DNA of 32,073 nucleotides from Ignavibacteriales bacterium. GTDB taxonomy: Bacteria; Bacteroidota; Ignavibacteria; Ignavibacteriales; Melioribacteraceae. Where the stretch lies: NCBI GenBank assembly GCA_020059785.1, contig JAGVBL010000248.1, positions 1 to 32,073 of the forward strand, in the 5' to 3' direction. Numbering within the stretch: position 1 is the stretch's first letter; each line of letters opens with the position of its first letter. Below the pieces are notes generated by a model that saw nothing but the letters and a program-made list of their open reading frames with translations, was not told the DNA's origin and ran no database searches. The position numbers were made by a program, and so were the translations under genes. Shown one piece after another: positions 12,861 to 31,466 of the stretch.

Positions 12861-14321
12861 ATGGAACGAAGAGAATTCATTTCAAAGTTAGGACAACTCG
12901 GAATAGGTGCAGCAGGTTTATCTATGATGCCTGATTTCGTTCGCGGTGCCATAGGCAAAAACGGCACTCCTCCTAATATTGTTTTTATACTTGCCGATGA
13001 CATGGGCTGGAATCAAACCGGTTATATCGGTTCAAAGTTTTATGAAACTCCAAATATAGATTCAATTGCACGCGATGGAATCCATTTCACTCAAGCGTAT
13101 GCACCGGCACCAACGTGCTCACCTTCCCGCGCCGGAATTATGACAGGTAAATATCCGGCACGTTTGCATCTTACAGAATACATTCCCGGTGATCAATATC
13201 CATGGGCGAAGTTAAAATGTCCGAAGATGGTCGACCGGCTTCCGCTTGAAGAAGTTACAATAGCAGAACTGCTTAAACCAATCGGTTACAGTACTGCTAT
13301 GATTGGCAAATGGCATCTGAATGTTGATAAAGAATATAAACCGGGCAGATTAGGTGATGCCGGCTCGCAAGGATTTGATGTTGACCATCCGAACGATAAA
13401 CCCGAACCGGATGCAGACCCAACAAACGATGCCCATCATGCAATTGAAAATACGAACGAGGCACTAAAATTTATAGACATGAATAAAGAGAATCCTTTCT
13501 TCTTATATCTTGCTCATACTATTCCGCATAGACCAATAATGGAACATCCGGACTTGATCTATAAATATCAGACAAAAGAAGGATCTGATAAGCTCATTAA
13601 TAACCCGATTATTGCAGCAATGATTGAAAGAATGGATACTCAAATTGGAAGGGTATTAAATAAATTAGATGATCTCAGTCTAAGTGAAAATACCATTGTT
13701 ATATTCGCCTCGGACAATGGCGGTTACGATAAACTTCAAGCACAGGATCCATTACGTGGTGGAAAATCCATGTTGTATGAGGGTGGAGTAAGAGTTCCGC
13801 TGGCAATTAGATGGCCCGGTATTATCAAATCAGGATCTAAATCAGAAGTGCCTGTCACAGGAATCGATTTATTCCCAACCTTTGCAGAAATTCTTGGAAT
13901 AAAAAATCTTCCGGAAAATGTTGATGGGACAAGTATTCTACCATTGTTAAAACAAAATGGTGAATTGAAAAGAGATGCAATCTATTGGCACTATCCGCAT
14001 TATCATCGTTTCGGATATATGCCGGGTGGAGCAATTAGAGAAGGCAAGTATAAACTGATTGAGTGGTATGAAAAATCATTTTACAATCAGCCCAATTCTG
14101 TTTCCTTGTTTGATATTGAAAACGACATTGGTGAAACGAATGATCTGTCGGAACAGATGCCGGAGAAGACCAAAGAACTATGGGATAAACTGAAAACCTG
14201 GCGCAAGAAAGTAAATGCTCAGGAGATGACTGTAAATCCGAACTATGATCCAAAACGTGCGTTGTTCTGGAAAGAAGGTTTAGATCCTAAGAAAGCTGAA
14301 TCGATTGGACAGTATTACTAA
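12861..14321 (+). CDS. Type I sulfatase (cysteine-type, S1 family) with twin-arginine-like signal
   Basis: 486 aa; NIVFILADDMGW, FGly motif CSPSRAGIMTGKYPARL, GKWHL, FASDNGG, GGKSMLYEGGVRVP; N-terminus MERREFISKLGQLGIGAAGL. Confidence 0.96.
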   Translation: MERREFISKLGQLGIGAAGLSMMPDFVRGAIGKNGTPPNIVFILADDMGWNQTGYIGSKFYETPNIDSIARDGIHFTQAYAPAPTCSPSRAGIMTGKYPARLHLTEYIPGDQYPWAKLKCPKMVDRLPLEEVTIAELLKPIGYSTAMIGKWHLNVDKEYKPGRLGDAGSQGFDVDHPNDKPEPDADPTNDAHHAIENTNEALKFIDMNKENPFFLYLAHTIPHRPIMEHPDLIYKYQTKEGSDKLINNPIIAAMIERMDTQIGRVLNKLDDLSLSENTIVIFASDNGGYDKLQAQDPLRGGKSMLYEGGVRVPLAIRWPGIIKSGSKSEVPVTGIDLFPTFAEILGIKNLPENVDGTSILPLLKQNGELKRDAIYWHYPHYHRFGYMPGGAIREGKYKLIEWYEKSFYNQPNSVSLFDIENDIGETNDLSEQMPEKTKELWDKLKTWRKKVNAQEMTVNPNYDPKRALFWKEGLDPKKAESIGQYY

Positions 14322-14377
14322 AGCAATAGTTGGTTCTCAAAATAATATTAAATGAAATTTTTTTAGAAGGATAAATA

Positions 14378-15244
14378 ATGTCAATATCTAATAATCAAAT
14401 TCTTGAGCTTGAAAAAATTGCACAACGGATAAAGATCAAAATTATTAAAATGCTGACCGTTTCCGGCGGAGGGCATGCCGGAGGTTCAATGTCGGCTGTT
14501 GAAATTCTTACTTCTCTTTATTTTCATGAAATGAAGTTCAATCCGAAGAATCATTTAGATGAAAATAGAGATCGCTTTATATTATCTAAGGGTCATGCAT
14601 CACCTGCTCTTTATGCAGTCTTTTCTGAAATTGGTTTTTTGACCGAAGACTCATTATGGACACTCCATGAAATTGACGGACCATTGCAAATGCATCCCGA
14701 ACGCGGATTGTGCCCCGGTGTCGAAATGAGTACAGGTGCTCTGGGTCAGGGTTTATCCGCTGGAATCGGAATGGCTTTGGGTGCAAGAATAAGAGGCAAA
14801 GATTTTAGAGTCTACGTATTAATTGGCGATGGAGAAATGGATGAAGGACAAATATGGGAAGCAGCTATGAGTGCTTCCAAATTTAAGTTAGATAACCTTA
14901 CTACCATAATTGATTACAATAAATTTTCTTTAACTAGCAGTACAACAGAAACTATGCCGCTTGAACCTTTAGCCGATAAATGGAAGTCTTTTGGATGGAA
15001 TGTTCTGGAAATAAATGGGCATAAAATTCCGGAAATCCTGGAAGCATTGCAGCAGGCAAAGGAAGTTAAAGGTAAACCGACAATAATTATTGCCAATACC
15101 TTTAAGGGTCATAATATTCCTTCCTTCGAAAATACGGCTGCAAGTCATTCGGTTTCATTCACTTTAGATCAGGTTAGAGAAACACTTAAAGGTCTGGGTT
15201 GCGATGAAACGGAAATAAATACAACAATTACCAAAATGAAATAA
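14378..15244 (+). CDS. Transketolase, N-terminal (TPP-binding) subunit
   Basis: 288 aa; GGHAGGSMSAVEILTSLYF, SKGHASPALYAVF, MSTGALGQGLSAGIGMALG, GDGEMDEGQIWEAAM. Confidence 0.94.
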   Translation: MSISNNQILELEKIAQRIKIKIIKMLTVSGGGHAGGSMSAVEILTSLYFHEMKFNPKNHLDENRDRFILSKGHASPALYAVFSEIGFLTEDSLWTLHEIDGPLQMHPERGLCPGVEMSTGALGQGLSAGIGMALGARIRGKDFRVYVLIGDGEMDEGQIWEAAMSASKFKLDNLTTIIDYNKFSLTSSTTETMPLEPLADKWKSFGWNVLEINGHKIPEILEALQQAKEVKGKPTIIIANTFKGHNIPSFENTAASHSVSFTLDQVRETLKGLGCDETEINTTITKMK

Positions 15245-15260
15245 GGAGATAATTGATACA

Positions 15261-16199
15261 ATGTTAAATGGAATGGCGCCAAGAGATGTTATTGGTAATA
15301 TCTTTATTGATATGGCAAAAAAAAATCCGGATATAGTTCTGGTTGATGCTGATTTTGGAACTGCATCAAAAATATTTGATTTTAAAAAACACTTTCCGGA
15401 TCGATTTATTCAAGTCGGTATAGCAGAACAAAATATGATGGGGATTGCAGCCGGATTAAGTACTGTAGGATTAATTCCATTTGTTTCAACAGTTGCAGTA
15501 TTCTGTTCGCGTAGAGCGTGCGATCAGGTTACTATTTCAATCGCACTATCTCATACAAATGTAAAAATACTAGGTGTATATGCAGGACTTTTTGTTGGTA
15601 AAAACGGTGCATCTCATCAATCCTTAGAAGACATTTCAATTATGAGAGCATTACCAAACATGGTTGTTCTTCAACCAGCCGACGCAATTGAAACAGAACA
15701 GATGCTTCATTTTGCCGCAGAATATATAGGCCCAATGTATATACGAATAGGAAGAGATCCTATTAAATCATATTTACCCCCAGATTACAAATTCCAATTA
15801 GGAAAGTCAGTAACAATTAAAGAGGGAAAGGATTTAACAATTTTTACTTACGGTGACTTGGTAGAAGAAACAATGAAAGCTGCCGGGTTATTATCTGAAG
15901 ATGGAATTGAAGCAAGAGTAATAAATATGAGCTCGATTAAACCAATTGATGAGGAAGCAATTGTTAAAGCGGCAAAAGAAACGGGTACTATTGTTACAAT
16001 TGATAATCATAATATTTATGGTGGTTTAGGCTCTGCAGTTGCAGAAGTAGTGACAGAAAAATATCCGGTAAAAGTTAAACGTATTGGTGTTAAGGACGTT
16101 TTTGGAAAGACCGGATCCAACGATGAAATGAAGAAATATTTTGGATTAAGAGCGATAGATATGCGGAATGACATTTTAACTTTTTTAAAAAAGAGTTGA
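15261..16199 (+). CDS. Transketolase, C-terminal subunit
   Basis: 312 aa; RFIQVGIAEQNMMGIAAGLS, GASHQSLEDISIMRALPNMVVLQPADA, YIRIGRD; directly follows the N-subunit. Confidence 0.94.
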   Translation: MLNGMAPRDVIGNIFIDMAKKNPDIVLVDADFGTASKIFDFKKHFPDRFIQVGIAEQNMMGIAAGLSTVGLIPFVSTVAVFCSRRACDQVTISIALSHTNVKILGVYAGLFVGKNGASHQSLEDISIMRALPNMVVLQPADAIETEQMLHFAAEYIGPMYIRIGRDPIKSYLPPDYKFQLGKSVTIKEGKDLTIFTYGDLVEETMKAAGLLSEDGIEARVINMSSIKPIDEEAIVKAAKETGTIVTIDNHNIYGGLGSAVAEVVTEKYPVKVKRIGVKDVFGKTGSNDEMKKYFGLRAIDMRNDILTFLKKS

Positions 16200-16262
16200 A
16201 TTAGATCTTATATATCTCTCTCAGAATAAAAATAACTACTATATGTGCGGGTGAAATAATTT

Positions 16263-17180
16263 ATGAAAAAACAAAAAAAGTATTCCGGTATTGTAATCCC
16301 AATGTTGACTCCTTTTACAAAAGATGGCAGGATTGATTTAGAAGCTGTTGAAAAGATAATTGATAACTTTATTTCCTACCAGGTCTATCCTTTCATATTA
16401 GGAACAACCGGTGAAGCAGCATCAATTTCATCAAGGGAGAAAAGAAGAATTGCAGAGTTTATAGGTAAAAAATATTCGGGCAAAACAACCATCTATGTGG
16501 GTGTATCAAGCAACTGTGTTGAAGATACAATTGAAAGTGCAAAAGAATTCGTTGAGCTCGGAGCGGATGTTCTTGTTGCAAATCTCCCAAGCTATTATTC
16601 TCTTAGACCTGATCAGATGCAGAGATATTTTGAACACCTTGCTAACTCTGTTTCAAAACCATTAATTCTCTATAACATTACAGCAACAACTCATATGTCA
16701 ATTCCTTTAGATGTTATTGAAAAATTAAGTCATCATCCTAATATCGTTGCTCTTAAAGATTCTGAAAGAGATTTGGCAAGGCTTGATACAGTCATCGAAA
16801 TGTTTAAAGACAGAGAAGATTTTTCTCATCTTATCGGTTGGGCAGCAAAAAGTTTTTACGGTCTTTCCAAAGGTTCGGATGGACTTGTCCCTAGCACAGG
16901 TAATATGACGCCCGGAATGTTTAAGAAAATGTATAATTCAGTATTGGAAGGGAATTTAGAAATTGGCGAGAGGCTTCAAAATGAAACTGACCAACTCGCT
17001 TCAATTTATCAATCTGACAAAACACTTGGCGAATCATTAGCGGCAGCAAAAATAATTATGGAAGAATTTGGACTTTGTAAAAATTTTGTATTATCACCTT
17101 TGACACCTCTTAACAAAATAACTGTTCAGGAGATCATCAGTAAACTAAATGATCTGAAAGAGAAAGTTGAATTGTATTAA
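16263..17180 (+). CDS. DHDPS/NanA-family class I aldolase or lyase
   Basis: 305 aa; GTTGEAASIS, ILYNITAT (Tyr), NIVALKDSERD (Schiff-base Lys), consistent with an intact active site. Confidence 0.9.
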   Translation: MKKQKKYSGIVIPMLTPFTKDGRIDLEAVEKIIDNFISYQVYPFILGTTGEAASISSREKRRIAEFIGKKYSGKTTIYVGVSSNCVEDTIESAKEFVELGADVLVANLPSYYSLRPDQMQRYFEHLANSVSKPLILYNITATTHMSIPLDVIEKLSHHPNIVALKDSERDLARLDTVIEMFKDREDFSHLIGWAAKSFYGLSKGSDGLVPSTGNMTPGMFKKMYNSVLEGNLEIGERLQNETDQLASIYQSDKTLGESLAAAKIIMEEFGLCKNFVLSPLTPLNKITVQEIISKLNDLKEKVELY

Positions 17181-17194
17181 TCAAGGAGAACTTT

Positions 17195-18757
17195 ATGTAT
17201 TCAGAAACACTACACTGGATTGATTATGTTGTAATTGTTATTTCACTTCTTGTTTCGCTCTATGTCGGGTTTTATTTCGTAAAAAAACAGACAAGTACTA
17301 ATGCATACTATGCCGGAAGCAGATCTATCCCTTCATGGGCAATAGGTATGTCAATCCTTGCAACTCTTATAAGCAGTATAACTTTTCTTGCTTATCCCGG
17401 TGAGGGTTTCAAATCGAACTGGATATTACTTGTACAGGGAATTATGGTAGTTATAGTTCTTTCCGGGCTGGTCTGGTTTGTTGTTCCGCTATTTAGAAAA
17501 GTGATTGGCATCAGTACCTACGAATATTTTGAAAAGAGATTCGGATTCTTTGCAAGAATTTATACTTCGCTTGCTTTTACATTTACGCATTTTACAAAAA
17601 TGGGAACGGTCCTCTTCTTAATGGGTTTAGCTATTTCAAGTATGGTAGGTATTGATACACTAACGGTAATCTGGGTGATAGGTTTAATAATAATTATTCT
17701 AACAATGATGGGTGGAATCGAAGCTGTTATCTGGCTCGATGTTATTCAGGGTTTTATGCTCGTCGGCGGAGGATTAATTGCGCTTGCATTAATAATGTTT
17801 ATTCCGGAAGGTGGACCTGGGGCAATTATAAATACTGCCATTGAAAACAATAAAATTGGTTTTGCCCCTTATGATGTTGATTTCACAAAACTGACATTCT
17901 TTGTTATGGTTCTTAACGGAGTTTTTTATGGGATCCAGAAATATGGGACTGATCAAACTATTGTTCAACGATATTTAACAGCAAAATCTGATAAAGGAGC
18001 AATTAAGGCAGCATTGATGGGTGTTGTTTTAAGTCTGCCCGTCTGGGCTTTATTTATGTTTATCGGAACAGCCCTGTTCTCATTTTATCAGATTACAGAT
18101 TTTGCTTTGCCCGAAGGAATTAAACCCGATCAGGTTTTCCCTTACTTTATTACTACACAGGTGCCTCCCGGTTTAACCGGATTAATTTTAGCAGCTCTTA
18201 TCGCTGCAGCAATTTCAAGTCTGGATTCGGATTTAAATTGCCTTTCTGCAGTTGGTGTTACTGATTATTATGCCCGTCTTAAACCAAAAGCAACGGATAA
18301 GCAGAAACTAAATGTTGGACGCTGGATTGTATTCTTTTCGGGTATAGCTGCATTATTAATTGCTACAATCTATATTTATGCAGGTGGCGAAGGTGTTCTC
18401 GGAATTGTATTTGAACTCTACGCAATTTTCTCAGGTGGTATCGCCGGTATTTTTTTACTGGCACTATTCAGTAAGAAAGCAAACAAACATGGATTGTATA
18501 TCGCAATTGCTGTTTGTATTGTTTTCACAACGTACGCTGTTTTAAGCTCTACAAAGATTGATGGACAACCAATACTTAACCTGGGTTCACTCAATTTCCC
18601 TCATCATAAATATATGCTGGGTGTGTATACTCACTTTATAATAATAATCGTTGGATACTTTGCCAGTTTATTCTTCAAATCGGATGTACCTCATGAAGAA
18701 CTTACAATTTATTGGTGGATTAAAAATAGAAAAGCAATTGGTAAAAATGATTTATAG
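17195..18757 (+). CDS. Sodium:solute symporter family (SSS) transporter
   Basis: 520 aa; AYYAGSRSIPSWAIGMSILATLISSITFLAYPGEGFKSNW; DQTIVQRYLTAKS; AALIAAAISSLDSDLN; Shine-Dalgarno aaggag. Confidence 0.93.
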   Translation: MYSETLHWIDYVVIVISLLVSLYVGFYFVKKQTSTNAYYAGSRSIPSWAIGMSILATLISSITFLAYPGEGFKSNWILLVQGIMVVIVLSGLVWFVVPLFRKVIGISTYEYFEKRFGFFARIYTSLAFTFTHFTKMGTVLFLMGLAISSMVGIDTLTVIWVIGLIIIILTMMGGIEAVIWLDVIQGFMLVGGGLIALALIMFIPEGGPGAIINTAIENNKIGFAPYDVDFTKLTFFVMVLNGVFYGIQKYGTDQTIVQRYLTAKSDKGAIKAALMGVVLSLPVWALFMFIGTALFSFYQITDFALPEGIKPDQVFPYFITTQVPPGLTGLILAALIAAAISSLDSDLNCLSAVGVTDYYARLKPKATDKQKLNVGRWIVFFSGIAALLIATIYIYAGGEGVLGIVFELYAIFSGGIAGIFLLALFSKKANKHGLYIAIAVCIVFTTYAVLSSTKIDGQPILNLGSLNFPHHKYMLGVYTHFIIIIVGYFASLFFKSDVPHEELTIYWWIKNRKAIGKNDL

Positions 18758-18857
18758 AAATGTCCTTAAAGTATTTTCAACTCATCCCTTAACTTTCTTG
18801 GTTAGTGTGGTTAGTGATGCTCAAAAGACACTCCCCTCAATTGAGCAATGTAGAAAT

Positions 18858-18885
18858 GAGCCGGCGGAATTTGCCGGCTCGTTTT
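18858..18885 (+). terminator. Intrinsic (Rho-independent-like) terminator
   Basis: Perfect 8-bp inverted repeat GAGCCGGC (18858-18865) / GCCGGCTC (18873-18880), 7-nt loop GGAATTT, then GTTTT. Lies in the largest intergenic gap of the window. Confidence 0.85.
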
Positions 18886-19001
18886 AATGGGTGTAAAGTT
18901 TTGATAGCTGTTGTAAGAACTACTTCATTTTATATGTTATTGGAGAAATTAGTTAATCTATTGTTACTGTTGTTTTAGCAGGTGAATCATAGGTAAAAAT
19001 A

Positions 19002-20549
19002 ATGATAGAAAGCTCGCTTACAATATTAGATGTGATTATAATAATTGCTTATTTCATTTTTATTGTTTGGCTTGGTGCTAAGTTTAAAAAGAATCAGAAA
19101 GACACTAGAAGATATTTTCTTGGTAAACAGAATATCCCTGGTTGGGCTGTCGGTATGTCTTTGTTTGCCACAATAATATCAAGCTGGACTTTTATTGCTT
19201 TACCCGGTAAAGCTTTTAAGACAGATTTACAGTACATGGTTAATATACTTATCCTTCCTATTTGTGCCTTTATGGCATCAAAATTCTTAATTGCACTTTT
19301 CAGAAATAAAATAAAATTAAGTGCTTACGAGTATTTAGAAAAACGTTTTGGAATTTTTGCCCGCATTTATGGAAACCTTGCATTTCTTATTGTTCACTTC
19401 GGAAAGATGGCAGCGATTTTGTATTTGCTGAGTCTTACAGTTTCGGGAATTACCGGCTGGAATATTTTCGTTTTAATACTTCTGATTGGCATTGCAACCA
19501 TTCTTTATACATTCTATGGCGGGATTGAGGGTGTTGTCTGGTCCGAAGTAATTCAGGGATTTCTATTGATCGGCGGCGGCATTGTGACAGTTTTGTTCAT
19601 CCTCTTTACGTTTCCTGGTGGCGCTTCTGATCTGATATCGGAAACGATCAATGCAGATAAATTGAAACTATGGTCGTTTGATTTCACATGGACTAATCAA
19701 AATTCTATTGTTCTGATATTTTTCGGACTTAATTACTGGATGCAGAAATATGTCTCGGATCAAACAGTTGTTCAGAGATACCTTTTAGCTTCTTCTGAAA
19801 AGGGTGCATCGAAAGCAATCTGGATCTCTTCAGTATTGATTATGATGATCTGGGTTCTTTTCATGAGCATCGGAGCATTCTTGTGGACATACTACAAGTT
19901 TCAACCCGGACTATTACCGGAAACACTGATGAATACTCCCGATAAAGTATATCCTTATTTTATTGGTCATCAATTACCAAGCGGATTGACCGGAATAATT
20001 TTATCAGCACTCCTTGCCGCAACGATGTCAACATTATCTTCAGATCTTAACGCACTCGGCTCGATAATATATGACGATTATTATAATAAGTTGCGTAAAA
20101 ACAGAAATGACAGGCAGCGTTTAAAATTCTCGAGAATTACGGTTCTGGTTGCCGGTATTCTTTGTGTATTTCTTGCGATGGCATTCACAAGTATTCAATC
20201 AATGGCTGATGCAGCTTTTGATTTTGTTGCTCTTGTTGCCGGTGGAATTTTAGGAATGTATTTCCTGGGAATTTTCACACGTCGCACAAGCCCAAAAGGA
20301 TTGTATGTTGGACTCGCATTTACAGTAGTAGCAATTCTTTACCTTTTTATTAGTAATAGTGGAATGATCAAATCATATCGTTTTATTTCGATTAATACAC
20401 TTTGGATCGGATTGATTGGCAATGTTATTACTCTTGTAATTGGATATCTGACAAGTTTAATACTTACTCCTAATTATTCCGCAGAACCGGGTTTAATTAT
20501 TGGTAAATCTCACAATAATTTTCCAAATGTCTTTAATCAGGAGAAATAA
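19002..20549 (+). CDS. Sodium:solute symporter family (SSS) transporter
   Basis: 515 aa; RYFLGKQNIPGWAVGMSLFATIISSWTFIALPGKAFKTD; DQTVVQRYLLASS; ALLAATMSTLSSDLNALGS; paralog of 17195..18757. Confidence 0.93.
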   Translation: MIESSLTILDVIIIIAYFIFIVWLGAKFKKNQKDTRRYFLGKQNIPGWAVGMSLFATIISSWTFIALPGKAFKTDLQYMVNILILPICAFMASKFLIALFRNKIKLSAYEYLEKRFGIFARIYGNLAFLIVHFGKMAAILYLLSLTVSGITGWNIFVLILLIGIATILYTFYGGIEGVVWSEVIQGFLLIGGGIVTVLFILFTFPGGASDLISETINADKLKLWSFDFTWTNQNSIVLIFFGLNYWMQKYVSDQTVVQRYLLASSEKGASKAIWISSVLIMMIWVLFMSIGAFLWTYYKFQPGLLPETLMNTPDKVYPYFIGHQLPSGLTGIILSALLAATMSTLSSDLNALGSIIYDDYYNKLRKNRNDRQRLKFSRITVLVAGILCVFLAMAFTSIQSMADAAFDFVALVAGGILGMYFLGIFTRRTSPKGLYVGLAFTVVAILYLFISNSGMIKSYRFISINTLWIGLIGNVITLVIGYLTSLILTPNYSAEPGLIIGKSHNNFPNVFNQEK

Positions 20550-20551
20550 AG

Positions 20552-21514
20552 ATGAATTATAAGGAACACCCATGGATGGGAGTTTTTGCCGCAACTCTCT
20601 GCACATTTAAAGCTAACGAAGAAATTGATGAGGTTGGATTACGCGAATACTTTGCCAGAATGAGCAGAGTGGATGAATTAAAAGGACTTGTTTGCAACGG
20701 TCACACAGGGGAAATAATGTCTTTGCGGGAGAAGGAACGGACATTTGTAACAAAAGTTTTAGCTGAAGAAATCAGAAAGAGCGGAACGAAAAAGAAAGTT
20801 ATTACCGGAATTTGCGGAGAGGGAAGTATTACTGCAACAGAACAATCACTAGCTGCTAAAGAAGTTGGGGCAGATGCAATACTTTTAATGCCTCCGCACT
20901 ATCAGCTAAGGTTTGGTCGTTCAAGTCAAACGGCAATCGATTTTATTCATGATGTTGCCGACGGAGCGGACATCGATATTATTCTCCATCAATACCCTTC
21001 CTGGACGAAAGTTGGATACACGTTAAATGAAATGCTGGAAATTGTTAAACATCCCCGAGTTGTTTGTATTAAGATGGGTACGCGCGATATGGCACGGTGG
21101 CTCTATGATTATGAAAAGTTAAAAGAAGCAAAACCGGATTTGTCAATTATTACCTGTCACGATGAGTACTTACTTCCAACTCTCCTCGAAGCGGGTGATG
21201 GCGCACTTATTGGCTTTGCAGGCTTTACTCCTGAATTGATGATCAAACTTGTCCATGCTTGTGTTGAAGGTAATTTGAAAGAGGCAAAAAATGCACAGAA
21301 GACTGTGGCACCGTTAGCTAGGTTGGTATACAATTTCGGCGAACCGGGAAGTTATGCCCATCAAAGAATGAAAGTTGCTCTCTGGTTAATGGGAAAAATA
21401 TCTTCTCCGGTATTCCGCAGACCGATTAGACCGATTTCGAAGGAGAGCACTAAAAAAATTGCTGATGAATTGAATAGAATCGGTTATGAAACACCAAATG
21501 CAAAACACATTTAA
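20552..21514 (+). CDS. DHDPS/NanA-superfamily protein, active-site divergent
   Basis: 320 aa; GHTGEIMSLREKER, KEVGADAILLMPPHY, IILHQYPSW, VVCIKMGTRD; overall DHDPS-family pattern. Confidence 0.85.
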   Translation: MNYKEHPWMGVFAATLCTFKANEEIDEVGLREYFARMSRVDELKGLVCNGHTGEIMSLREKERTFVTKVLAEEIRKSGTKKKVITGICGEGSITATEQSLAAKEVGADAILLMPPHYQLRFGRSSQTAIDFIHDVADGADIDIILHQYPSWTKVGYTLNEMLEIVKHPRVVCIKMGTRDMARWLYDYEKLKEAKPDLSIITCHDEYLLPTLLEAGDGALIGFAGFTPELMIKLVHACVEGNLKEAKNAQKTVAPLARLVYNFGEPGSYAHQRMKVALWLMGKISSPVFRRPIRPISKESTKKIADELNRIGYETPNAKHI

Positions 21515-21519
21515 TTAAA

Positions 21520-22590
21520 ATGAACAGAAGAGATTTTGCTAAAATATCATCGCTTGCTGCTTTGGGTCTTGCTTTGCCCAGTGGATTTGATGCTAGGGAT
21601 ATGTCCAAAAAGAAAATGAAAATTGGAATGATCGGTACTACACATTCACATGCATCCGAAAAAATAAAAACGATTCTTGGTCTTTGTGAAATATATGATT
21701 TGGTAGGTGTTGCAGAAGTTGATAGCATAAAACAAAAAGCCGCTGCTGCATCAGCGGATTACAATGGCGTTAAGTGGGTAACAAAGAAAGAATTGTTAAG
21801 TTTTAAATCACTTGATGCTGTGATTATTGAATCATCTATGGAAGATGTTCTTAATGATGCAATCGATTCTGTAAAAGCCGGGAAACATATTCACATCGAT
21901 AATCCTCCGGGAAGATCGTTCCCTCTGTTTGAAGATCTGCTTATTGAAGCAGAAAGTAGGGGATTGGCATTTCAACTCGGCTACTTTACACGATACAATA
22001 GAGCCGTTCAAACAGCAAAAAAAATTATATGCGAAGGTGTGATCGGAGAGATTTTTGAAATTGATGGAACTTTCAGCAAAAAGATTCCTGATAAGAGAAG
22101 GAATGATATTGCTAAATATTATGGCGGCTCAATGCTTTTTCTAGGTTGCTATTTAATTGAATTAGTCGTTTCAATTCTTGGCGAACCTGATAGAATCACA
22201 ACATACAGAAAGAAAACATTTCCTGATCTTGACAATCTTTATGATAACGAACTTACTGTTTTGGAATACAAACATGCAACTGCTTCACTTCGGAGTTCGG
22301 TCTTGGAAATTGACGGTGAAGTAAGAAGAAATTTAACTTTTGTCGGAACTGAAGGTACGGTTGAAATAAATCCTTTTGAGCCCGGAAAAGTATTTTTAAC
22401 ACTTAATGAACCGAAGAAAAACTATTTGAAAGGGAAGAATCAAATTCAATTGCCGGAACAACGGGATAGATATTCAGAACAGCTTATTGATTTTGCCGGT
22501 ATGATAAGGAAAGAAAAACAACTTTACTTTCCGGTAGTAAAAGAATTGGAAATTCATAAAGCGCTGCTTACGGCAGCAAACTATTATTAA
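21520..22590 (+). CDS. Gfo/Idh/MocA-like protein with twin-arginine-type N-terminus; divergent catalytic motifs
   Basis: 356 aa; MNRRDFAKISSLAALGLALP; GMIGTTHSHAS nucleotide-binding region; KHIHIDNPPG at the EKP position; YYGGSMLFLGCYLIELVVSILGEP at the catalytic helix. Confidence 0.82.
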   Translation: MNRRDFAKISSLAALGLALPSGFDARDMSKKKMKIGMIGTTHSHASEKIKTILGLCEIYDLVGVAEVDSIKQKAAAASADYNGVKWVTKKELLSFKSLDAVIIESSMEDVLNDAIDSVKAGKHIHIDNPPGRSFPLFEDLLIEAESRGLAFQLGYFTRYNRAVQTAKKIICEGVIGEIFEIDGTFSKKIPDKRRNDIAKYYGGSMLFLGCYLIELVVSILGEPDRITTYRKKTFPDLDNLYDNELTVLEYKHATASLRSSVLEIDGEVRRNLTFVGTEGTVEINPFEPGKVFLTLNEPKKNYLKGKNQIQLPEQRDRYSEQLIDFAGMIRKEKQLYFPVVKELEIHKALLTAANYY

Positions 22591-22604
22591 AGAGCTAAAT
22601 CCAT

Positions 22605-23099
22605 ATGGACACAACAAAAAATAATTATTCAAAAACTCAGCTTATCGCATTGGTAACATTGCGGGCATTGATCGGCTGGCATCTTCTTTATGAAGGAATT
22701 GTAAAACTGTTGAATCCCGAATGGTCTGCAGCTGCATATCTTCGCGATTCGAAGTGGATCTTCTCCGGATTCTTTAATTGGATTGCCGATACATCAAGTG
22801 TGCTGCAAATTGTTAACTTTCTAAACGTTTGGGGTCTACTGCTTATCGGTTTAGGTCTGATGATCGGATTGCTCACACGAACTTCAACAATCGCCGGAAT
22901 TGTTTTGATTCTATTCTACTATTTAGCAACCCCGCCGCTAACCGGATTGACTTACATGTTTCCACCGGAAGGGAGTTATTTAATTGTTAATAAAAACCTG
23001 ATTGAATTAGCTGCTCTTGTTGTGCTTTTGTTTTTCCCATCCGGAAAAATTATTGGTATCGACCGAATAATATCAAAGCTTAGAAGGAAAGAATCATGA
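22605..23099 (+). CDS. DoxX family membrane protein
   Basis: 164 aa, multi-TM; LRALIGWHLLYEGIVKLLNPEWSAAAYLRDSKW...GLLLIGLGLMIGLLTRTSTIAGIVLILFYYLATPP. Confidence 0.8.
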   Translation: MDTTKNNYSKTQLIALVTLRALIGWHLLYEGIVKLLNPEWSAAAYLRDSKWIFSGFFNWIADTSSVLQIVNFLNVWGLLLIGLGLMIGLLTRTSTIAGIVLILFYYLATPPLTGLTYMFPPEGSYLIVNKNLIELAALVVLLFFPSGKIIGIDRIISKLRRKES

Positions 23100-24631
23100 A
23101 TGATGAGAAGAAAGAAAATAATAAGCTTCAGCGGAGAGATTTCCTAACCGGGTTAGCAACTATTCCGGTTCTCGGTTTGTTTGGAGCCGGTTTGTTAAAT
23201 CAAATTCTCTACAATAAAAACCGGGATGAATTGCTTAAATCTGATTTTAACCTGGGCGATTTAATTTCTGAGAGTGATGAATACCAGAATGACACAGAAG
23301 GTGATTTGCTTAGAATAGGAATTATCGGAACCGGCAGCAGAGGTATGAATTTATTGGAATCATTAGGTTTTACTAACACCAGGACAAAAAATAAATTGTA
23401 CGGCAATTTGAAAATTCAACTCGCCGGTGTTTGTGATGTTTACGACGATGCCGCTGAAGAAGCAATAATGTTATCTAAATATAATTCATTTGTGAAAAAT
23501 TCTGATGAATTCCCTCGGGCTAAGAGATACAAAAATTATCTTGATATGCTTAGCGATAAAGAAATTGATGCGGTAATTATTGCAACGCCCGATCACTGGC
23601 ATGCAAAAATGATAATTGAATCTGCAAATGCCGGAAAACATATTTTTGCTGAGAAGTGTCTGACAAGAACCATTGAAGAAGTTTATCAAATAAAAGATGC
23701 TCTGAAGAACAAAAAAATTGTTTTTCAGTATGGACATCAGAACCGTCAGCAGCTTTCATACAAAGTTGCTCGGCAAATGATAATGCAGAATATTTTAGGA
23801 AAAATTACATTATTAAAAACTCACACATACCGCAATACTCCGCAAGGTGCCTTCATTAGGCATTTAGACCAGAAAATTGATCCCGATAAAGTTGATTGGC
23901 AGCAATGGCTTGGTGATACTCCGTATTACCCGTTTACACCAAGCCGTTATTTTGGCTGGCAGAAATTTTTTGAGTATAGCGGGGGTTTGCCTGCGCACAT
24001 GTTCTCTCATGAATATGATGCAATTAATCAGGTTTTCAAGTTAGGTATTCCAAAATCTGTGGTAGCAATGGGAGGAATCTATTACTGGAAAGATGACCGC
24101 AACACACCGGATGTTTTTCAGGCTTCATTTGAATATCCCGATCGGGAGTTGATCCTTACATATGATGCCAACCTTGCAAACACAAGCACAGGTGAGTATG
24201 AAAGAGGTGCAAAGGTAAAAGAAATTGTTGGTAATGATGCATGGATGAAACTCGGACTAAATATTACAATCTACCCCGATAAAAATTCTGAGAAGTACAA
24301 AGAGAAAATAAAACAAGGATTGGTTGAACCCGATTCTCCATTATTATCATTTATTCCCGGTGAAAATAAAAGTTCGGTACAGACTATTACATCTGCATCA
24401 AAAAAATTATATGCAAGCAGCGGTCTGGTCTCAACTTATAGGAATGGGAAAGAGGTAGATGTTACATATTTACATTTAAGAGAATGGCTGGAAGGTATTA
24501 GAAAAGGAATTGTGGTAAGCGGTACTTTCCAAACAGCTTTCGAAGATGCTATTACATGCCACATGGCGACTAAATCGTATCTCGAAAAACGGAGAGTTGA
24601 GTGGGATCCGGTCAATCAAAAAGTTATTTAA
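23096..24631 (+). CDS. Gfo/Idh/MocA family oxidoreductase with twin-arginine-type signal
   Basis: 511 aa; LQRRDFLTGLATIPVLGLFGAGLL; RIGIIGTGSRG; ATPDHWHAKMI; KHIFAEKCLTRT; GGLPAHMFSHEYDAI. Start overlaps the DoxX stop by 4 bp (ATGA). Confidence 0.9.
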   Translation: MNDEKKENNKLQRRDFLTGLATIPVLGLFGAGLLNQILYNKNRDELLKSDFNLGDLISESDEYQNDTEGDLLRIGIIGTGSRGMNLLESLGFTNTRTKNKLYGNLKIQLAGVCDVYDDAAEEAIMLSKYNSFVKNSDEFPRAKRYKNYLDMLSDKEIDAVIIATPDHWHAKMIIESANAGKHIFAEKCLTRTIEEVYQIKDALKNKKIVFQYGHQNRQQLSYKVARQMIMQNILGKITLLKTHTYRNTPQGAFIRHLDQKIDPDKVDWQQWLGDTPYYPFTPSRYFGWQKFFEYSGGLPAHMFSHEYDAINQVFKLGIPKSVVAMGGIYYWKDDRNTPDVFQASFEYPDRELILTYDANLANTSTGEYERGAKVKEIVGNDAWMKLGLNITIYPDKNSEKYKEKIKQGLVEPDSPLLSFIPGENKSSVQTITSASKKLYASSGLVSTYRNGKEVDVTYLHLREWLEGIRKGIVVSGTFQTAFEDAITCHMATKSYLEKRRVEWDPVNQKVI

Positions 24632-24676
24632 TAAGTATGATTAATTTGAAAAGTTTTCATAATGCCGGAGGGTTTA

Positions 24677-25816
24677 ATGTTTAGAAGTATTATTAAAATA
24701 TTGATCTCGATTTTACTTTTAACAGTTACTAATTGTGCACAGCAGTCGAATGATATTAAACACACAATTGTTGCAATCGAAAAAGGAAAATTTCACGGCT
24801 GGCCGGCAAATAACGGAATCTGGAGCTGGGGAAATGAAATCCTCGTAGGCTTTACTCAAACAGATTATGAGGAAACAGAAAGTCACAATATTAAGAACGA
24901 CTCTCCTTTATTAAGCAAACTTGCCAGAAGCCTTGATGGAGGTAAAACATGGAGAGTCTTTGATCCGGAAAACTATGTGGGGGATAATGGAAAAAAAACT
25001 AGACTGACAGAACCAATCAATTTTTTAAAGGAAGGATTTGCCCTTCGTATATCAAGCGATACCTATCATGGCAATAAAGATCCTGAAGGTCAGTTCTTTT
25101 ATTCGTATGATAAAGGGAATTCCTGGAATGGTCCGTTTTATCTGGGAGAAGTTTCAAAATTCTCACGTTTCAATGGATACGTCTTAACGCCGCGCACAGA
25201 TTATTTAGTACTTGGCGAGAAAGAATGTTTAATTTTTATTTCATCCCGAATTCCAGAAACAGGAATGTCTGATAAAATTTCTGTGATTCAAACTGCCGAC
25301 GGCGGGCTGACTTTTCAGTTGGTTGCAGACTACGTTGTACCGGCATCCGATCCACATCGTGCTGCTATGCCTAATACCGTTCGCATCTCGGATAACGAAC
25401 TTGTAATGTCTGTAAGAAGGAGAGTTATTGCCGACAACACAAAAAACTGGATCGATCTTTATTACTCAAATGATCTTGGTAAGACATGGGAATTCAGAAG
25501 TAAAATTGGTGATACAGGGGCATATAATGGTAATCCTCCCTCACTTGTAAAATTGAATGATGGTCGTTTATGCGCAGTTTATGGAGATAGAAACTCGAGT
25601 AGAATTGTCGGTAGATACAGCAGCGATGATGGTAAAACGTGGACAGAAGAATTTGTCATACGTGACAACTTCTATACACGTGAAAGACAGGACATGAAAG
25701 ATCTTGGTTATTGCCGCGTTGTTCAAAACAGAGACGGTGAGGTAGTTGCAATTTATTATTGGGCAACTGAAGAAAATCCGGAACAACACATTGCAGCTTC
25801 GATTTGGAAACCCTGA
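24677..25816 (+). CDS. Secreted/lipoprotein sialidase-fold (Asp-box/BNR) protein
   Basis: Asp-box-like motifs SLDGGKTW, SYDKGNSW, TADGGLTF, SNDLGKTW, SSDDGKTW; N-terminus MFRSIIKILISILLLTVTNCAQ suggests a lipobox Cys. ATG 24677 has GGAGG five bases upstream and is preferred over track start 24662. Confidence 0.82.
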   Translation: MFRSIIKILISILLLTVTNCAQQSNDIKHTIVAIEKGKFHGWPANNGIWSWGNEILVGFTQTDYEETESHNIKNDSPLLSKLARSLDGGKTWRVFDPENYVGDNGKKTRLTEPINFLKEGFALRISSDTYHGNKDPEGQFFYSYDKGNSWNGPFYLGEVSKFSRFNGYVLTPRTDYLVLGEKECLIFISSRIPETGMSDKISVIQTADGGLTFQLVADYVVPASDPHRAAMPNTVRISDNELVMSVRRRVIADNTKNWIDLYYSNDLGKTWEFRSKIGDTGAYNGNPPSLVKLNDGRLCAVYGDRNSSRIVGRYSSDDGKTWTEEFVIRDNFYTRERQDMKDLGYCRVVQNRDGEVVAIYYWATEENPEQHIAASIWKP

Positions 25817-25864
25817 ATTCTGAAATTTTCTAAAAAAATCTTGAATTAAATAAAAGGTGGAACA

Positions 25865-27838
25865 ATGAAATTATTTTTTAGAATTATTTTATCTATGTCG
25901 GCAATTTTTTTTACTGCAAATCTGCTTTTAGCACAGCAAGTAATGCCGCCATCGGTGGAACAATCATTAAACGAACCGATTAAATATACCGGTCAACTCA
26001 ATCCGGATAAGAGGTTTTACGATGGCAGACTTCCACATGTTGTTGGTGTTCATCATTACCAGGTTTTACGTGCCAACCGGAGTAATCCTTCCGAGCCAGG
26101 CATTGTGGGATGGACATATAATCATCAACCTTACCTTTCATATTGGAACGATACATTTTATTTACAGTATCTATCTGGATTGATCGGAGAGCATACACCC
26201 CCGACTCGAATTCTTATTACAAAATCGAAGGACGGAATCAACTGGAGTGACCCGGTTGTAGTTTTCCCGGAATATATTCTGCCTGAGATAAACGACGACG
26301 GGGAAATGATTCCGGCCGGCACTTTCGCAGTTCATCATCAGAGAATGGGATGGTATGTTGCACCGAATGGAAAACTTTTAACACTTGGATTTGTTGGTTA
26401 TTGTGCAACACCGCGCAGATCTCCGAATGCCGGTAATGGTATTGGAAGAATTGTAAGAGAAGTAAAATCAGATGGAACATTCGGTCCCATCTATTTTATC
26501 CGTTATAACCGCCATGTCGGTTGGAACGAAAAAAACACAAACTACCCGTTCTATAAAGAAAGCAAAGACAAAGATTTTCTTGTTGCATGTGAGAGCTTGC
26601 TTGCGGATAAACTTATTACTCTTCAGTGGTGGGAAGAAGATAGAGGCAAGGACGGATTTTATGCAATGGATCCTTCGCAGGTCCCTGACGGCGATACGTT
26701 CTCAAAAAAATCTACAACTGCTGCCGGAGCCGGCAAAGCATTCAATTATTATACTCGTCCCGATGGAGTAATTGTTGGTTTATGGAAAAATCAGTATGCT
26801 TCCATGAGTTCCGATAAAGGCAAAACCTGGACTCCGATAGTAAAGAATGAATCGCTACTTACTTCAGGGGCAAAAACCTGGGGACAGAAGACCGATGATG
26901 GCAAATATGTTATAGTTCACAATCAATCGGCAACGAAGCGAAATCGATTCCCGATGACTGCATTGGTTGGAGACGACGGGCATACGTTCGATAGAATATT
27001 CGGATTACGCGGAGAAGTTCCTACTCGAAGATATCAGGGGATTCATAAAAATCCCGGTGTTCAATACTTCAGGGGAATTATTGAAGGAAATGGAAATCCT
27101 CCCGGGAACGATCTATGGATGACTTATAGTGTAAATAAAGAAGATATATGGATTACAAAAACACCAACACCAATTGTTGGAAGCGTTAATGATGAAGTAA
27201 ATGAAAATTTTGAGAATGTGAATTCGATTAGCGACTTGAAATTATGGAGCGTTTATATGCCATCATGGGGACCGGTATCAATTATCAAAGATCCTAATTC
27301 AAAAAACAGTTATCTGGAACTCCGTGATGAAGAGCCATATGACTATTCATTCTTTGAAAGGATTTTCCCATCTGAATCAAAGAAAGAGATCGAGTTCAAA
27401 TTTCAAGGTGAAAAGCTTCCGCAGGGTTTTGCACCTGAGATCGAAGTTCAGGATCAGAAAGGAAACAGGGCTATTAAACTAAGAATTGATAAAGACTGGC
27501 TCTCATTTGATATCGAAAAAGTTTCAGTGGACCCGGTTAAGATTGATCCGAAAAAATGGAACCATGTTAAACTTGATATTGACTGTATAAAAGGATCATA
27601 CAAAGTAACTGTTAATGGAATTCGCTATCCAGACGAAATTCTGTTTGGAGAAAAAGCCGATGTTGTTGAACGCATCGTTTTCAGAACCGGTCCGTACAGA
27701 AATTTTATTCCGGCTCAGGTTGTTGAGAGAGGGATCGGTTCACAATCCGGTTTTGATCTTGATGACCAACCGGGTGCAGATTATAAATCTCCTCTTATAA
27801 TTCTTAATCTCGATGATATTATAACAAGGAGCTATTAA
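25865..27838 (+). CDS. Secreted predicted beta-propeller glycan-active protein with C-terminal jelly-roll/LamG-like region
   Basis: 657 aa; signal peptide MKLFFRIILSMSAIFFTANLLLAQ; ITKSKDGINWSDP and SSDKGKTWTP Asp-box-like motifs; from about aa 440 a beta-rich segment (ENFENVNSISDLKLWS...WNHVKLDIDCIKGSYKVTVNG) typical of concanavalin-like domains. Confidence 0.7.
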   Translation: MKLFFRIILSMSAIFFTANLLLAQQVMPPSVEQSLNEPIKYTGQLNPDKRFYDGRLPHVVGVHHYQVLRANRSNPSEPGIVGWTYNHQPYLSYWNDTFYLQYLSGLIGEHTPPTRILITKSKDGINWSDPVVVFPEYILPEINDDGEMIPAGTFAVHHQRMGWYVAPNGKLLTLGFVGYCATPRRSPNAGNGIGRIVREVKSDGTFGPIYFIRYNRHVGWNEKNTNYPFYKESKDKDFLVACESLLADKLITLQWWEEDRGKDGFYAMDPSQVPDGDTFSKKSTTAAGAGKAFNYYTRPDGVIVGLWKNQYASMSSDKGKTWTPIVKNESLLTSGAKTWGQKTDDGKYVIVHNQSATKRNRFPMTALVGDDGHTFDRIFGLRGEVPTRRYQGIHKNPGVQYFRGIIEGNGNPPGNDLWMTYSVNKEDIWITKTPTPIVGSVNDEVNENFENVNSISDLKLWSVYMPSWGPVSIIKDPNSKNSYLELRDEEPYDYSFFERIFPSESKKEIEFKFQGEKLPQGFAPEIEVQDQKGNRAIKLRIDKDWLSFDIEKVSVDPVKIDPKKWNHVKLDIDCIKGSYKVTVNGIRYPDEILFGEKADVVERIVFRTGPYRNFIPAQVVERGIGSQSGFDLDDQPGADYKSPLIILNLDDIITRSY

Positions 27839-27839
27839 A

Positions 27840-28622
27840 ATGATTATACGATATTTCACCGAAGGGGAAAAACTTGATGTTGCCGGTCTAAACGAAATTA
27901 CTGTTCTGATCGATCGAAGCGAAACTGAATTAACTGAAATCGGCTGGAATTGCTGGACCCCAAATCAGGATGGTCCGCCTCATAAGCATAATGATAAAAC
28001 TCAATTATTCTATGTAACCAATGGAGTCGGGAAAATTCATTTGGGGAATGATGTATATGATGCTTCACCTGGAGACCTGGCCTATGTACCGGCCGGTCTA
28101 GTGCATCAGACTATTACGACTACCAGCGAAAAACTGTGTTATATGCTCTTTAATGTATTTATAAGTCAGGATAAGGAAGGTCATACAAGTTTTGCAGATC
28201 ATATTCAAAAAGTAAAACAGATCAGAAAACTCCAGGCGCAATCCGGTAAGTCGGATGTTGAGGAAACAATTACATTGAAGGAAGTAATACCCGGAAAATT
28301 TTTCAGTCAGGTTTTGAGTAATAATAGATTGGAATTGAATAATAAACATTCCGTCGGACTTATTCCCCGAAGTATTAATACCAATCTCGAATTGAATCTG
28401 GTACGTAGAGCTAGCGGTTTAAGTAATCAAATGGAAGTTCACAACGATAAAGAACAGACATTTTTTATTCTTGAAGGAGATGGTACTGTAACAGTCGGTA
28501 GTGAATCGGTTCATGTAAAAGCCGGAAACGTAATTGCAATTCCAAGAAATGTATATCATAAAGCCGAAGCCGGTAAAGAGGATCTATATTATCTCTGCTT
28601 AAATAGTTTTTCAATTACTTAA
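27840..28622 (+). CDS. Bicupin protein (two cupin_2-type domains), KdgF-like metal site
   Basis: 260 aa; PPHKHNDKTQLFYVTNGVGKIHLG...DLAYVPAGLVHQ and EVHNDKEQTFFILEGDGTVTVG...NVIAIPRNVYHK. RBS AGGAG lies in the end of the upstream ORF. Confidence 0.85.
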   Translation: MIIRYFTEGEKLDVAGLNEITVLIDRSETELTEIGWNCWTPNQDGPPHKHNDKTQLFYVTNGVGKIHLGNDVYDASPGDLAYVPAGLVHQTITTTSEKLCYMLFNVFISQDKEGHTSFADHIQKVKQIRKLQAQSGKSDVEETITLKEVIPGKFFSQVLSNNRLELNNKHSVGLIPRSINTNLELNLVRRASGLSNQMEVHNDKEQTFFILEGDGTVTVGSESVHVKAGNVIAIPRNVYHKAEAGKEDLYYLCLNSFSIT

Positions 28623-28637
28623 CAGGGCTGATTTATT

Positions 28638-31466
28638 ATGAAAAAAATTTTTTCGTTATTGATTATTCTTTCTTTATCAATCGGGATGAATACTGATTCC
28701 GAAATATCTTTTGTCAATTCAATCGGACTGAAAATGATCAAGATTGACAAGGGAAGTTTTGTAATGGGCGATTTAACCGGCCGGGGGCAGTTTGATGAGT
28801 CTCCTGTAAGAAACGTTAAGATCAGTAATGACTTCTTTATTTCGGAAACGGAAGTTACAATTGAACAATTCCGTCAATTTAAAAAAGATTATCATGGATT
28901 CGATTCTTATTTTCCATACGCAACCGGTATTAGTTGGTTTGATGCAGAAGAGTATTGTAAATGGCTCAGTGCCAAAGAAGGTAAAATGTATAGACTTCCT
29001 ACCGAAGCAGAATGGGAGTATGTATGCAGAGCCGGTACTACTTCAGATTTTTCATCGGGTGAAAAACGACCAAATCATGAAACACCGAATCAATTCGATA
29101 TTAAAAATATGCATACCGGTCCAATCGAATGGTGTTACGATTGGTATGGTGATTATCTGTTTGCAGGCCAAACCGACCCGGTCGGTTTATCGTGGGGATT
29201 TTCGAAAGTTGTACGCGGCGGTTTGCCTGATAATAAATTGAAGGTCTACGATTATCCGGTTGACTATTATTCACGTTCTTCTAACCGTTCTTCAATGGCT
29301 CCTTCCTTCAATTCATTTATTAATAAGAGTGATTCTCGAGAAGTCGAAAAAACTATTCAGGGGTATGATCAATACATGCCGGGTTTAGTTGGAATTATTT
29401 TCGATGATAAGGAGATGCAGAAACCTGTTGGTATCTGGCGAATTACGGAATTAAATTCAGATAAAACTAAGTGGCAAAACCTGGATGATTTTACTGTTTT
29501 ATGGATCGGTCAGATTTCTTCTCCATACACTGGTTTGGTAAAAGTTGAAGCAGAAGCAGATGCCGGTATTAGATTAAAAATAGACGGACAAACTATTATA
29601 GATGGCTGGGGATTGGGCGAAAACAGAAAAGGTCAGTTCGAGTTTCAAGCCGGGAAAAGATATAAGATAGAAGTTGATTATATAAAACAAAAGGGGCGCC
29701 CATCTTTTATGCGTTTCTTCTGGAGTTATGAAGGAAAAATGAAAGAATTAATTCCACCTGAAGCGTTTACCTGTAATACAAATGATATTATCGAAACTGA
29801 ATCAATTTTCTCAAAATTATTGGCGGCAAGATTAAATGCTGCAAGCATAGGTTTCCGAATAGTACAAGCTCCACCACCTCAATCCAAGTCTCTTGCTTTT
29901 GAAGCGCCGTTTAATATGCAGGGAGTAAAACAGAGTTTCGATAAATCCAATTTCAAAAAAATAAATAAACCGTATTTCAGAAAAAGATTTTTACTTCCTA
30001 TTCCACCGGAGAATGTTGAAAAAGAAGATAGAAGTGCTGCAGGTATTGACCCTAATTTTTCAAGACATAATCACGATCCAGGATTGATGGCGCTTCCAAA
30101 CGGCGACCTACTATATGTTTTTTATACATCAACTTATGAAGATGAACCCGAAGTTGCACTTGCTGCAATGAGATTACGGTACGGCGCAGATGAGTGGGAC
30201 TGGCCTTCACGATTTCTTGATTTTGCAGATGTGAATGATGTTGCGCCTTTATGCTGGAATGACAACGGCAAACTCTGGCTCTTCTTCGGAGATATTCACC
30301 TTGACGGACGATATCCTTTTCAATGGATCAACTCAACCGATAACGGTGCAACCTGGAGTGGTGTTAAATTTCCCGAATTCATTGATGAAGTAGGACCTCA
30401 CACCCCCCAGCCGATTAACTCTGCATTTAGAGATGAAAACGGTTCATTATTTTTTGGAATGGATGGACTTGGTCCTTCTTCTCTTCTCATGTCAAGCAGT
30501 GATAACGGAAAAACATGGAGTGATACAAAGGGAAGAACTGGGGGAAGACACACAACATTCATTCAATTGAAGAATGGTGAGATCGCTGGTTATGGTGGAA
30601 AGCAATCTGATATTGATGGTTATATGCCGATCTCAATTTCAACCGATAAAGGAAAAACTTGGATCGTTTCCCGATCGGAATTTTCACCTCTCGGGACTAA
30701 TCAACGCCCTACAATTTTACGGCTTGCAAGCGGCAGACTTTTTTTTGCAAGCGACTTCCAGAGGATCGATGGTTATCAGCCAGAATCAATTAAACAGAGA
30801 GGTTCATTTGCAGCACTCTCCGATGACGAAGGAAAAACATGGCATATTAAAAAAATTCCCGGTGGTCAGGAACATGAATCTGAAATGCGAAGACAGGAGA
30901 TGCGTGGCGAAACTCTCGGTTACTCTGTTGCAGCTCAATCACCGGATGGAATGATTCATCTGATGGCTTCTATGACTCATCCATGCCTCCATTATGAATT
31001 TAATGAAGAGTGGATTTTAGATTCTTCGGATAAAATTTTAAATGAAGCGGATTTTATGAGACCAACTACTAAAAAAATTACCAATGTAAAAACATATAAA
31101 GAATTTTATAAAAATGGGAAATTAAGAATTGAATACTCTGGTGGGTTTGGTGACGATGAAAGATTTTTGTTACACGGCGTAGAAACCTGGTATTATGAAA
31201 ATGGTAAAACGCAATACACAGTAAATTACAATTTTGGGAAGAAAGTAGGAGTAGAGTCCTATTGGGATCCAAAACGATTAAAGATTTGGGAGTGGAGCCG
31301 CAGAGAAGATGGAGTTTCAGAGTGGCATCAATGGTGGGGTAACGGTTTGAAGAAAGCTGAATCGACATGGAAAGATTTGAAATGTGATGGATATGCAAAA
31401 ACCTGGGATTACAAAGGAAATTTGGTGAGTGATGTAGTATTTCAAAATGGTGAAATTAAAAAGTAG
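28638..31466 (+). CDS. Mosaic secreted protein: FGE-sulfatase-like (SUMF1) domain carrying a PA14-like insertion, Asp-box sialidase-like domain, YwqK/MORN-type C-terminal repeats
   Basis: 942 aa; signal peptide; KMIKIDKGSFVMGD...ESPVRNVKISNDFFISETEVTIEQF...YRLPTEAEWEYVCRAG (FGE fold); WIGQISSPYTGLVKVEAEADAGIRLKIDGQTIIDGW (PA14); IGFRIV (end of FGE fold); STDNGATW, SSDNGKTW, STDKGKTW, SDDEGKTW; FYKNGKLRIEYSGG...TWYYENGKTQYTVNYNFGKKVG. Confidence 0.85.
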   Translation: MKKIFSLLIILSLSIGMNTDSEISFVNSIGLKMIKIDKGSFVMGDLTGRGQFDESPVRNVKISNDFFISETEVTIEQFRQFKKDYHGFDSYFPYATGISWFDAEEYCKWLSAKEGKMYRLPTEAEWEYVCRAGTTSDFSSGEKRPNHETPNQFDIKNMHTGPIEWCYDWYGDYLFAGQTDPVGLSWGFSKVVRGGLPDNKLKVYDYPVDYYSRSSNRSSMAPSFNSFINKSDSREVEKTIQGYDQYMPGLVGIIFDDKEMQKPVGIWRITELNSDKTKWQNLDDFTVLWIGQISSPYTGLVKVEAEADAGIRLKIDGQTIIDGWGLGENRKGQFEFQAGKRYKIEVDYIKQKGRPSFMRFFWSYEGKMKELIPPEAFTCNTNDIIETESIFSKLLAARLNAASIGFRIVQAPPPQSKSLAFEAPFNMQGVKQSFDKSNFKKINKPYFRKRFLLPIPPENVEKEDRSAAGIDPNFSRHNHDPGLMALPNGDLLYVFYTSTYEDEPEVALAAMRLRYGADEWDWPSRFLDFADVNDVAPLCWNDNGKLWLFFGDIHLDGRYPFQWINSTDNGATWSGVKFPEFIDEVGPHTPQPINSAFRDENGSLFFGMDGLGPSSLLMSSSDNGKTWSDTKGRTGGRHTTFIQLKNGEIAGYGGKQSDIDGYMPISISTDKGKTWIVSRSEFSPLGTNQRPTILRLASGRLFFASDFQRIDGYQPESIKQRGSFAALSDDEGKTWHIKKIPGGQEHESEMRRQEMRGETLGYSVAAQSPDGMIHLMASMTHPCLHYEFNEEWILDSSDKILNEADFMRPTTKKITNVKTYKEFYKNGKLRIEYSGGFGDDERFLLHGVETWYYENGKTQYTVNYNFGKKVGVESYWDPKRLKIWEWSRREDGVSEWHQWWGNGLKKAESTWKDLKCDGYAKTWDYKGNLVSDVVFQNGEIKK

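Follow-up and report, generated by a model that had tools for sequence, protein, structure and literature searches.

DoxX proteins are widespread, and most of them have no known function. In the DoxX superfamily, the thiosulfate:quinone oxidoreductase DoxDA of Acidianus provides a precedent for quinone binding. How exported NAD-dependent dehydrogenases recycle their cofactor outside the cytoplasm is an open question. Zymomonas GFOR is redox-neutral and has no membrane partner, and the lactose 3-dehydrogenase LacABC of Caulobacter is a dehydrogenase of the flavin/cytochrome c type. In Bacteroides, BT2158 is a periplasmic glycoside 3-dehydrogenase required for growth on several disaccharides (PMC11300592), and the DUF1080 protein BT2157 hydrolyses 3-ketotrehalose (cited in PMC9007349).

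The window analysed here is a whole stretch of 32,073 nt, contig JAGVBL010000248.1 of an Ignavibacteriales bacterium (GCA_020059785.1; assembly of 2.98 Mb, 84% complete). We call GFO1 the dehydrogenase gene located 5′ of DoxX and GFO2 the one located 3′ of it. The gene order given by the first-pass annotation (RRDF-Gfo/Idh, DoxX, QRRDF-Gfo/Idh) matches the open reading frames, all on the plus strand, as well as the Pfam calls (Gfo/Idh/MocA, DoxX, Gfo/Idh/MocA), and the 4-bp ATGA overlap that it reported between DoxX and the last gene is indeed present:

19002..20549, + strand: SSF sodium/solute symporter, in the operon shared with DoxX-GFO2
20552..21514, + strand: aldolase of the DHDPS/NanA family, in the operon shared with DoxX-GFO2
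21520..22590, + strand: GFO1, RR-type Gfo/Idh/MocA protein of 356 aa (Pfam), outside the conserved pair
22605..23099, + strand: DoxX, 164 aa, four predicted membrane helices, predicted N-in/C-in (Pfam PF07681)
23096..23099, + strand: ATGA stop/start overlap of DoxX and GFO2 (sequence)
23096..24631, + strand: GFO2, Gfo/Idh/MocA oxidoreductase of 511 aa, member of the DoxX-linked clade (Pfam, tree)
23129..23245, + strand: RR motif and hydrophobic segment of GFO2 (QRRDFLTGLATIPVLGLF...), modelled helix 13–50, probable Tat signal-anchor
25865..27838, + strand: downstream BT_1020-like beta-propeller protein with a sialidase-like CBM (Pfam)

Our survey of Bacteroidota and plasmids shows that the conserved unit is DoxX with GFO2 and not the three-gene sandwich originally proposed. 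A search with the DoxX protein in 79 genomes of the window's family recovered nine loci in seven genomes, window included, and in all nine the GFO2 ortholog is the next gene, at a spacing that ranges from a 17-base overlap to a 15-base gap. DoxX-profile searches covered 164 genomes of the order, 396 of the phylum and 391 of the class, with some overlap between the sets; they contributed one further locus from the order and seven from another class, with GFO2 adjoining DoxX in 8/8. A search of a plasmid collection with DoxX added a locus of Parabacteroides distasonis in which GFO2 is again next to DoxX (WP_005861083.1/WP_005861085.1). Starting from the other protein, a GFO2-based contig scan, in which the best 80 of 529 relatives were taken in, yielded three further loci, one in Carboxylicivirga sediminis and two in one Bacteroidales MAG, all three with DoxX beside GFO2. 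The DoxX subfamily thus directly adjoins a GFO2 ortholog in 21 of 21 loci from two classes of Bacteroidota, far beyond chance, the order of the two genes being swapped in a single locus (L030, one of the three from the contig scan), whereas adjacency of GFO1 and DoxX is rare (2/21). None of 19 DoxX proteins outside the subfamily lies beside GFO2. As searches started with either protein led to this adjacency independently of each other, we count it in favour of an obligate functional pair, an interpretation that we hold with considerable confidence. A DoxX subfamily with one partner narrows the question of function to a single biochemical test, and the P. distasonis copy places the pair in a cultured organism.

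Among DoxX proteins with weak similarity to the profile, none was found beside GFO2; next to one of them, the other strand carries a different Gfo gene. A DoxX protein of a Haloferax plasmid (35% identity) has no Gfo neighbour, and 53 pattern matches in viral contigs included no relatives. The other DoxX-like gene of the window's genome (G000:C97) is located in an ABC-transporter cluster that contains no Gfo gene. Three other genomes of the window's genus gave no DoxX match, so that the module looks accessory. The 388-kb 'P. distasonis plasmid' record (NZ_OY725768.1, L156) includes the genes lpxB, surE and cydAB; it probably represents a fragment of the chromosome. In the swapped locus L030, a gene for an RR-signal aldo/keto reductase (10076–11032) shares 4 bases with the DoxX gene; this protein is perhaps a further exported oxidoreductase of the DoxX-GFO2 system. 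A literature search, which did not extend to most subscription journals, returned no paper describing the pair, which is weak evidence of its novelty.

The GFO2 proteins form a well-delimited clade. They score 530–960 bits against their own profile, the next Gfo proteins reaching at most 310 bits, and none of the loci of these next-best proteins (among the best 80 of 529 relatives in the GFO2 scan) carries a DoxX of the paired kind. In a tree of 66 proteins, all 21 DoxX-linked GFO2 proteins fall into one group (support 100/99), and shuffling the labels on this tree gives a mean of 18.2 label changes. This single grouping suggests that the pair formed once, as far as the sample shows, and was then kept despite strong divergence (paired DoxX proteins are 35–61% identical to that of the window) and changing neighbourhoods. 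The pairwise distances of DoxX and GFO2 are correlated (r = 0.69; 0/2000 permutations), as common descent alone could also produce. Swapping partners between paralogous pairs was informative for one of three genomes: exchange between its two copies lowered r to 0.56, and the other two genomes showed no change.

GFO2 has the features of the Gfo/Idh/MocA family, with a glycine-rich motif (GTGSRG at residue 78), an EK motif (E186-K187), a catalytic His (H305), the C-terminal domain and a PDB fold match of probability 1.00; the Rossmann glycines, the E-K pair and the catalytic Lys and His are all kept. Among the many Gfo enzymes that share its fold are levoglucosan, glucoside 3- and glucuronide 3-dehydrogenases, and its best solved sequence relatives are 8tdf/8tdh (78 bits over the central part). 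It is not a BT_2158 glycoside 3-dehydrogenase, scoring 98 bits against a cut-off of 750 for NF058561, and the other clade members likewise fall below this value. The N-terminus of GFO2 (LQRRDFLT; MNRRDFAK in GFO1) carries an RR motif that is invariant among its relatives; the conserved stretch behind this motif terminates in P-h-h-G, and the 20-residue RR/hydrophobic segment is 47% identical within the clade versus 28% in other RR-type Gfo proteins. In the structural model of GFO2 (mean pLDDT 79, pTM 0.81), residues 13–50 form a single helix of low to middling confidence. TatC is encoded in the window's genome. The twin-arginine type proposed for both dehydrogenases was borne out as to the RRDF motif, present in both, and as to a conserved Tat-type N-terminus in GFO2; the generic Tat-signal model of NCBIfam (TIGR01409) matched neither GFO1 nor GFO2 at E ≤ 1e-3, and the Tat reading therefore rests on the RR motif, its invariance in relatives and TatC. 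Together with the conserved hydrophobic segment and the helix model, these features suggest that GFO2 is probably exported by Tat and retained by an anchor helix. Absence of an AxA cleavage site was dropped as evidence for anchoring, since AxA is non-discriminating (9/20 GFO2 versus 26/88 others).

The DoxX protein of the window scores 26.6 bits with PF07681 (cut-off 23.6) and retains the general DoxX positions R20, G24, G31, K34, G82 and G88. A second set of residues, H26, E30, W40, N74, Y105, Y106, P110, K130 and E134, is specific to the paired proteins and mostly missing in other DoxX. Hydropathy and topology prediction put them on the outward-facing side, either within that half of the membrane or in the loops beyond it, which is where GFO2 would end up after export. 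We saw no conserved Cys, no haem or flavin site and no recognisable cofactor site in paired DoxX, and no flavoprotein accompanies DoxX-GFO2. An AF2 model built from four sequences (pLDDT 73, pTM 0.67) gave nothing significant with Foldseek, and a sequence search for solved DoxX relatives found none. Two assignments were rejected: DoxD/DoxA of the thiosulfate:quinone oxidoreductase, as the Pfam scan at E ≤ 1e-3 gave PF07681 alone, and an HvfX-type protein (NF050144, 20.2 bits against 80; MNIO/RiPP genes absent from the operon).

The glycoside or sugar-oxidation context suggested earlier for this locus agrees with the neighbourhood of the pair, which is linked to 3-keto-glycoside enzymes. A 3-keto-disaccharide hydrolase domain (PF06439, DUF1080) lies within about 3 kb of the pair in 7/21 loci. 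Restricted to the 17 pairs in genomes with counted PF06439 genes, five have such a neighbour versus 0.18 expected (P ~1.5e-6, a rough Poisson estimate that ignores kinship). In genome G139, the single PF06439 match genome-wide is located two genes upstream of the pair. The P. distasonis and Carboxylicivirga loci carry a BT_2158-family glycoside 3-dehydrogenase beside the pair (893 and 888 bits, full score). In the other class of Bacteroidota, the pair stands alone among unrelated genes. In the window, the pair is surrounded by genes for symporters, DHDPS/NanA-like aldolases, a sulfatase and a BT_1020-like propeller, and from these the substrate may be a ulosonic or other sugar acid.

The operon at 12861–31466, like its syntenic counterpart L021 (G053:C38), resembles one for catabolism of a sulfated glycan containing a ulosonic or sugar acid. 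It contains a sulfatase, two SSF symporters, two DHDPS/NanA aldolases and the propeller protein; L021 additionally contains genes for a GntP permease, PdxA and a DUF1537-type (SBD_N/NBD_C) kinase. The protein encoded at 28638–31466 has an unusual architecture, in which FGE-sulfatase, PA14 and BNR domains occur together with a MORN_2 repeat close to the C-terminal end. A full-length transketolase (9982–12006) is followed downstream in the same gene run by a transketolase split in two genes (14378–16199), and three consecutive FG-GAP repeat proteins occupy the contig start (78–6614). Elsewhere in the window's genome, an RR-type Gfo gene lies beside a double-DUF1080 protein without DoxX (L160, G000:C259, 3800–6531), an arrangement that resembles the pair's neighbours in L024.

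Pairing, clade, motifs and neighbourhood strongly support a functional pair, probably assembled as a membrane complex of DoxX and GFO2. The best overall explanation, to which we give a probability of roughly 0.4, is that DoxX and GFO2 together make up a two-protein sugar oxidoreductase of the inner membrane, in which DoxX serves as the dedicated membrane subunit. GFO2 would fold in the cytoplasm with NAD(P) bound, be exported by Tat, remain anchored by its uncleaved N-terminal helix and act as an oxidoreductase at the periplasmic face on a glycoside, keto-sugar or sugar acid. DoxX, for its part, would bind this helix and offer a polar pocket in its outer half (H26, E30, N74, Y105/Y106, K130 and E134). 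Its likeliest role would be re-oxidation of the trapped cofactor by menaquinone, which would make periplasmic oxidation independent of soluble NAD. We put forward this quinone-linked step tentatively, because menA and cytochrome bd (cydA) are present in the window's genome and the subfamily-specific ionisable residues of DoxX need explaining; against it, no electron-transfer cofactor is visible in DoxX and related pathways can be redox-neutral. The strictest version, in which DoxX is a flavin-free conduit that passes the hydride of a Tat-exported, NAD(P)-loaded sugar dehydrogenase to menaquinone, is rather unlikely, and we know of no precedent for direct hydride transfer from NADH to a quinone without flavin. 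If it is true, membrane sugar:quinone oxidoreductases would gain a new class, and a DoxX protein would have a defined role. DoxX-GFO2 is a concrete candidate for cofactor recycling outside the cytoplasm.

Alternatively, DoxX could be only a membrane anchor, assembly factor or export chaperone, with GFO2 working in a redox-neutral manner, its NAD permanently bound and the hydride of one sugar passed on to another sugar or to a later intermediate. This is a serious competitor, although we would not bet on it: related Gfo enzymes perform oxidation, elimination, hydration and reduction without net redox change, the hydride being returned in the last reduction (PMC7676230, PMC10628242), and the DUF1080 hydrolases in seven loci are compatible with a 3-keto pathway. 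In Mycobacterium tuberculosis, a DoxX protein provides the membrane component of a complex that also contains SodA and a thiol oxidoreductase (PMC6930017), and at fold level the assembly factor NACHO/TMEM35A comes out as the best candidate for DoxX (probability 0.92 but E 0.9, a lead only). However, GFO2 owns an anchor helix, which makes a second anchor seem superfluous, BT_2158-type enzymes function without DoxX, and ionisable residues within the membrane that are specific to the pair (H26, E30, E134) exceed the needs of an anchor. We consider electron transfer to menaquinone and an anchoring or assembly role about equally likely, electron transfer being slightly ahead.

It is improbable that DoxX acts as a transporter or flippase of the pathway, moving a keto-sugar product or a proton or metal and coupled to GFO2 by metabolism only. 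Polar residues within a four-helix membrane protein and the variable operon contexts of the pair would suit such a role, but the strict adjacency is to one enzyme clade and not to transporters or hydrolases, the window operon already has dedicated symporters and, to our knowledge, no DoxX protein is recorded as a transporter.

Least likely by far is the full module of the first-pass annotation, with GFO1 and GFO2 both exported dehydrogenases sharing one DoxX: both have RRDF motifs and flank DoxX, and G053:C38 keeps this gene order with Lys, His and Asp intact in its GFO1, but GFO1 is present in only 2/21 loci (the window and G053:C38), and we rejected it as a member of the module. Its search in the 79 genomes found a single ortholog, at the syntenic locus (44% identity). 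The window GFO1 matches the fold family in Pfam and reads IDNPPG and GCYLIE where this ortholog has IDKPPG and GCHLID; in both, GTxHSHA (GTTHSHA in the window) replaces GxGxxG. With its catalytic motifs altered in this way, the window protein is unlikely to be a working dehydrogenase of canonical type. Its reading frame is intact despite the loss of the catalytic Lys, His and Asp.

Several known systems share individual traits with the DoxX-GFO2 pair. In M. tuberculosis, DoxX-SodA-SseA likewise has DoxX as the membrane hub of a redox complex (PMC6930017), but there DoxX is joined by a superoxide dismutase and a thiol oxidoreductase, whereas the partner in the window is a sugar dehydrogenase. 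DoxDA includes a DoxX-like four-helix membrane subunit; the window DoxX has no Pfam DoxD/DoxA match, and partner and substrate context differ. Zymomonas GFOR is, like GFO2, a Gfo/Idh/MocA protein with Tat-type export and a structural match (1h6d), although sequence similarity is weak (~37 bits). The BT_2158/BT2157 (DUF1080) system of Bacteroides also relies on an exported Gfo/Idh/MocA protein; among PDB entries, its solved relatives 8tdf/8tdh match GFO2 best by sequence, and BT_2158 and DUF1080 genes are present in some DoxX-GFO2 loci. GFO2 differs in having an anchor-like N-terminus and a DoxX partner, neither of which is described for the BT_2158 family. Finally, LacABC resembles the pair in being membrane-bound and periplasmic and in its proximity to DUF1080 hydrolase genes (PMC9007349), but its proteins are unrelated to those of the pair, which joins an NAD-type Gfo/Idh/MocA enzyme to DoxX.
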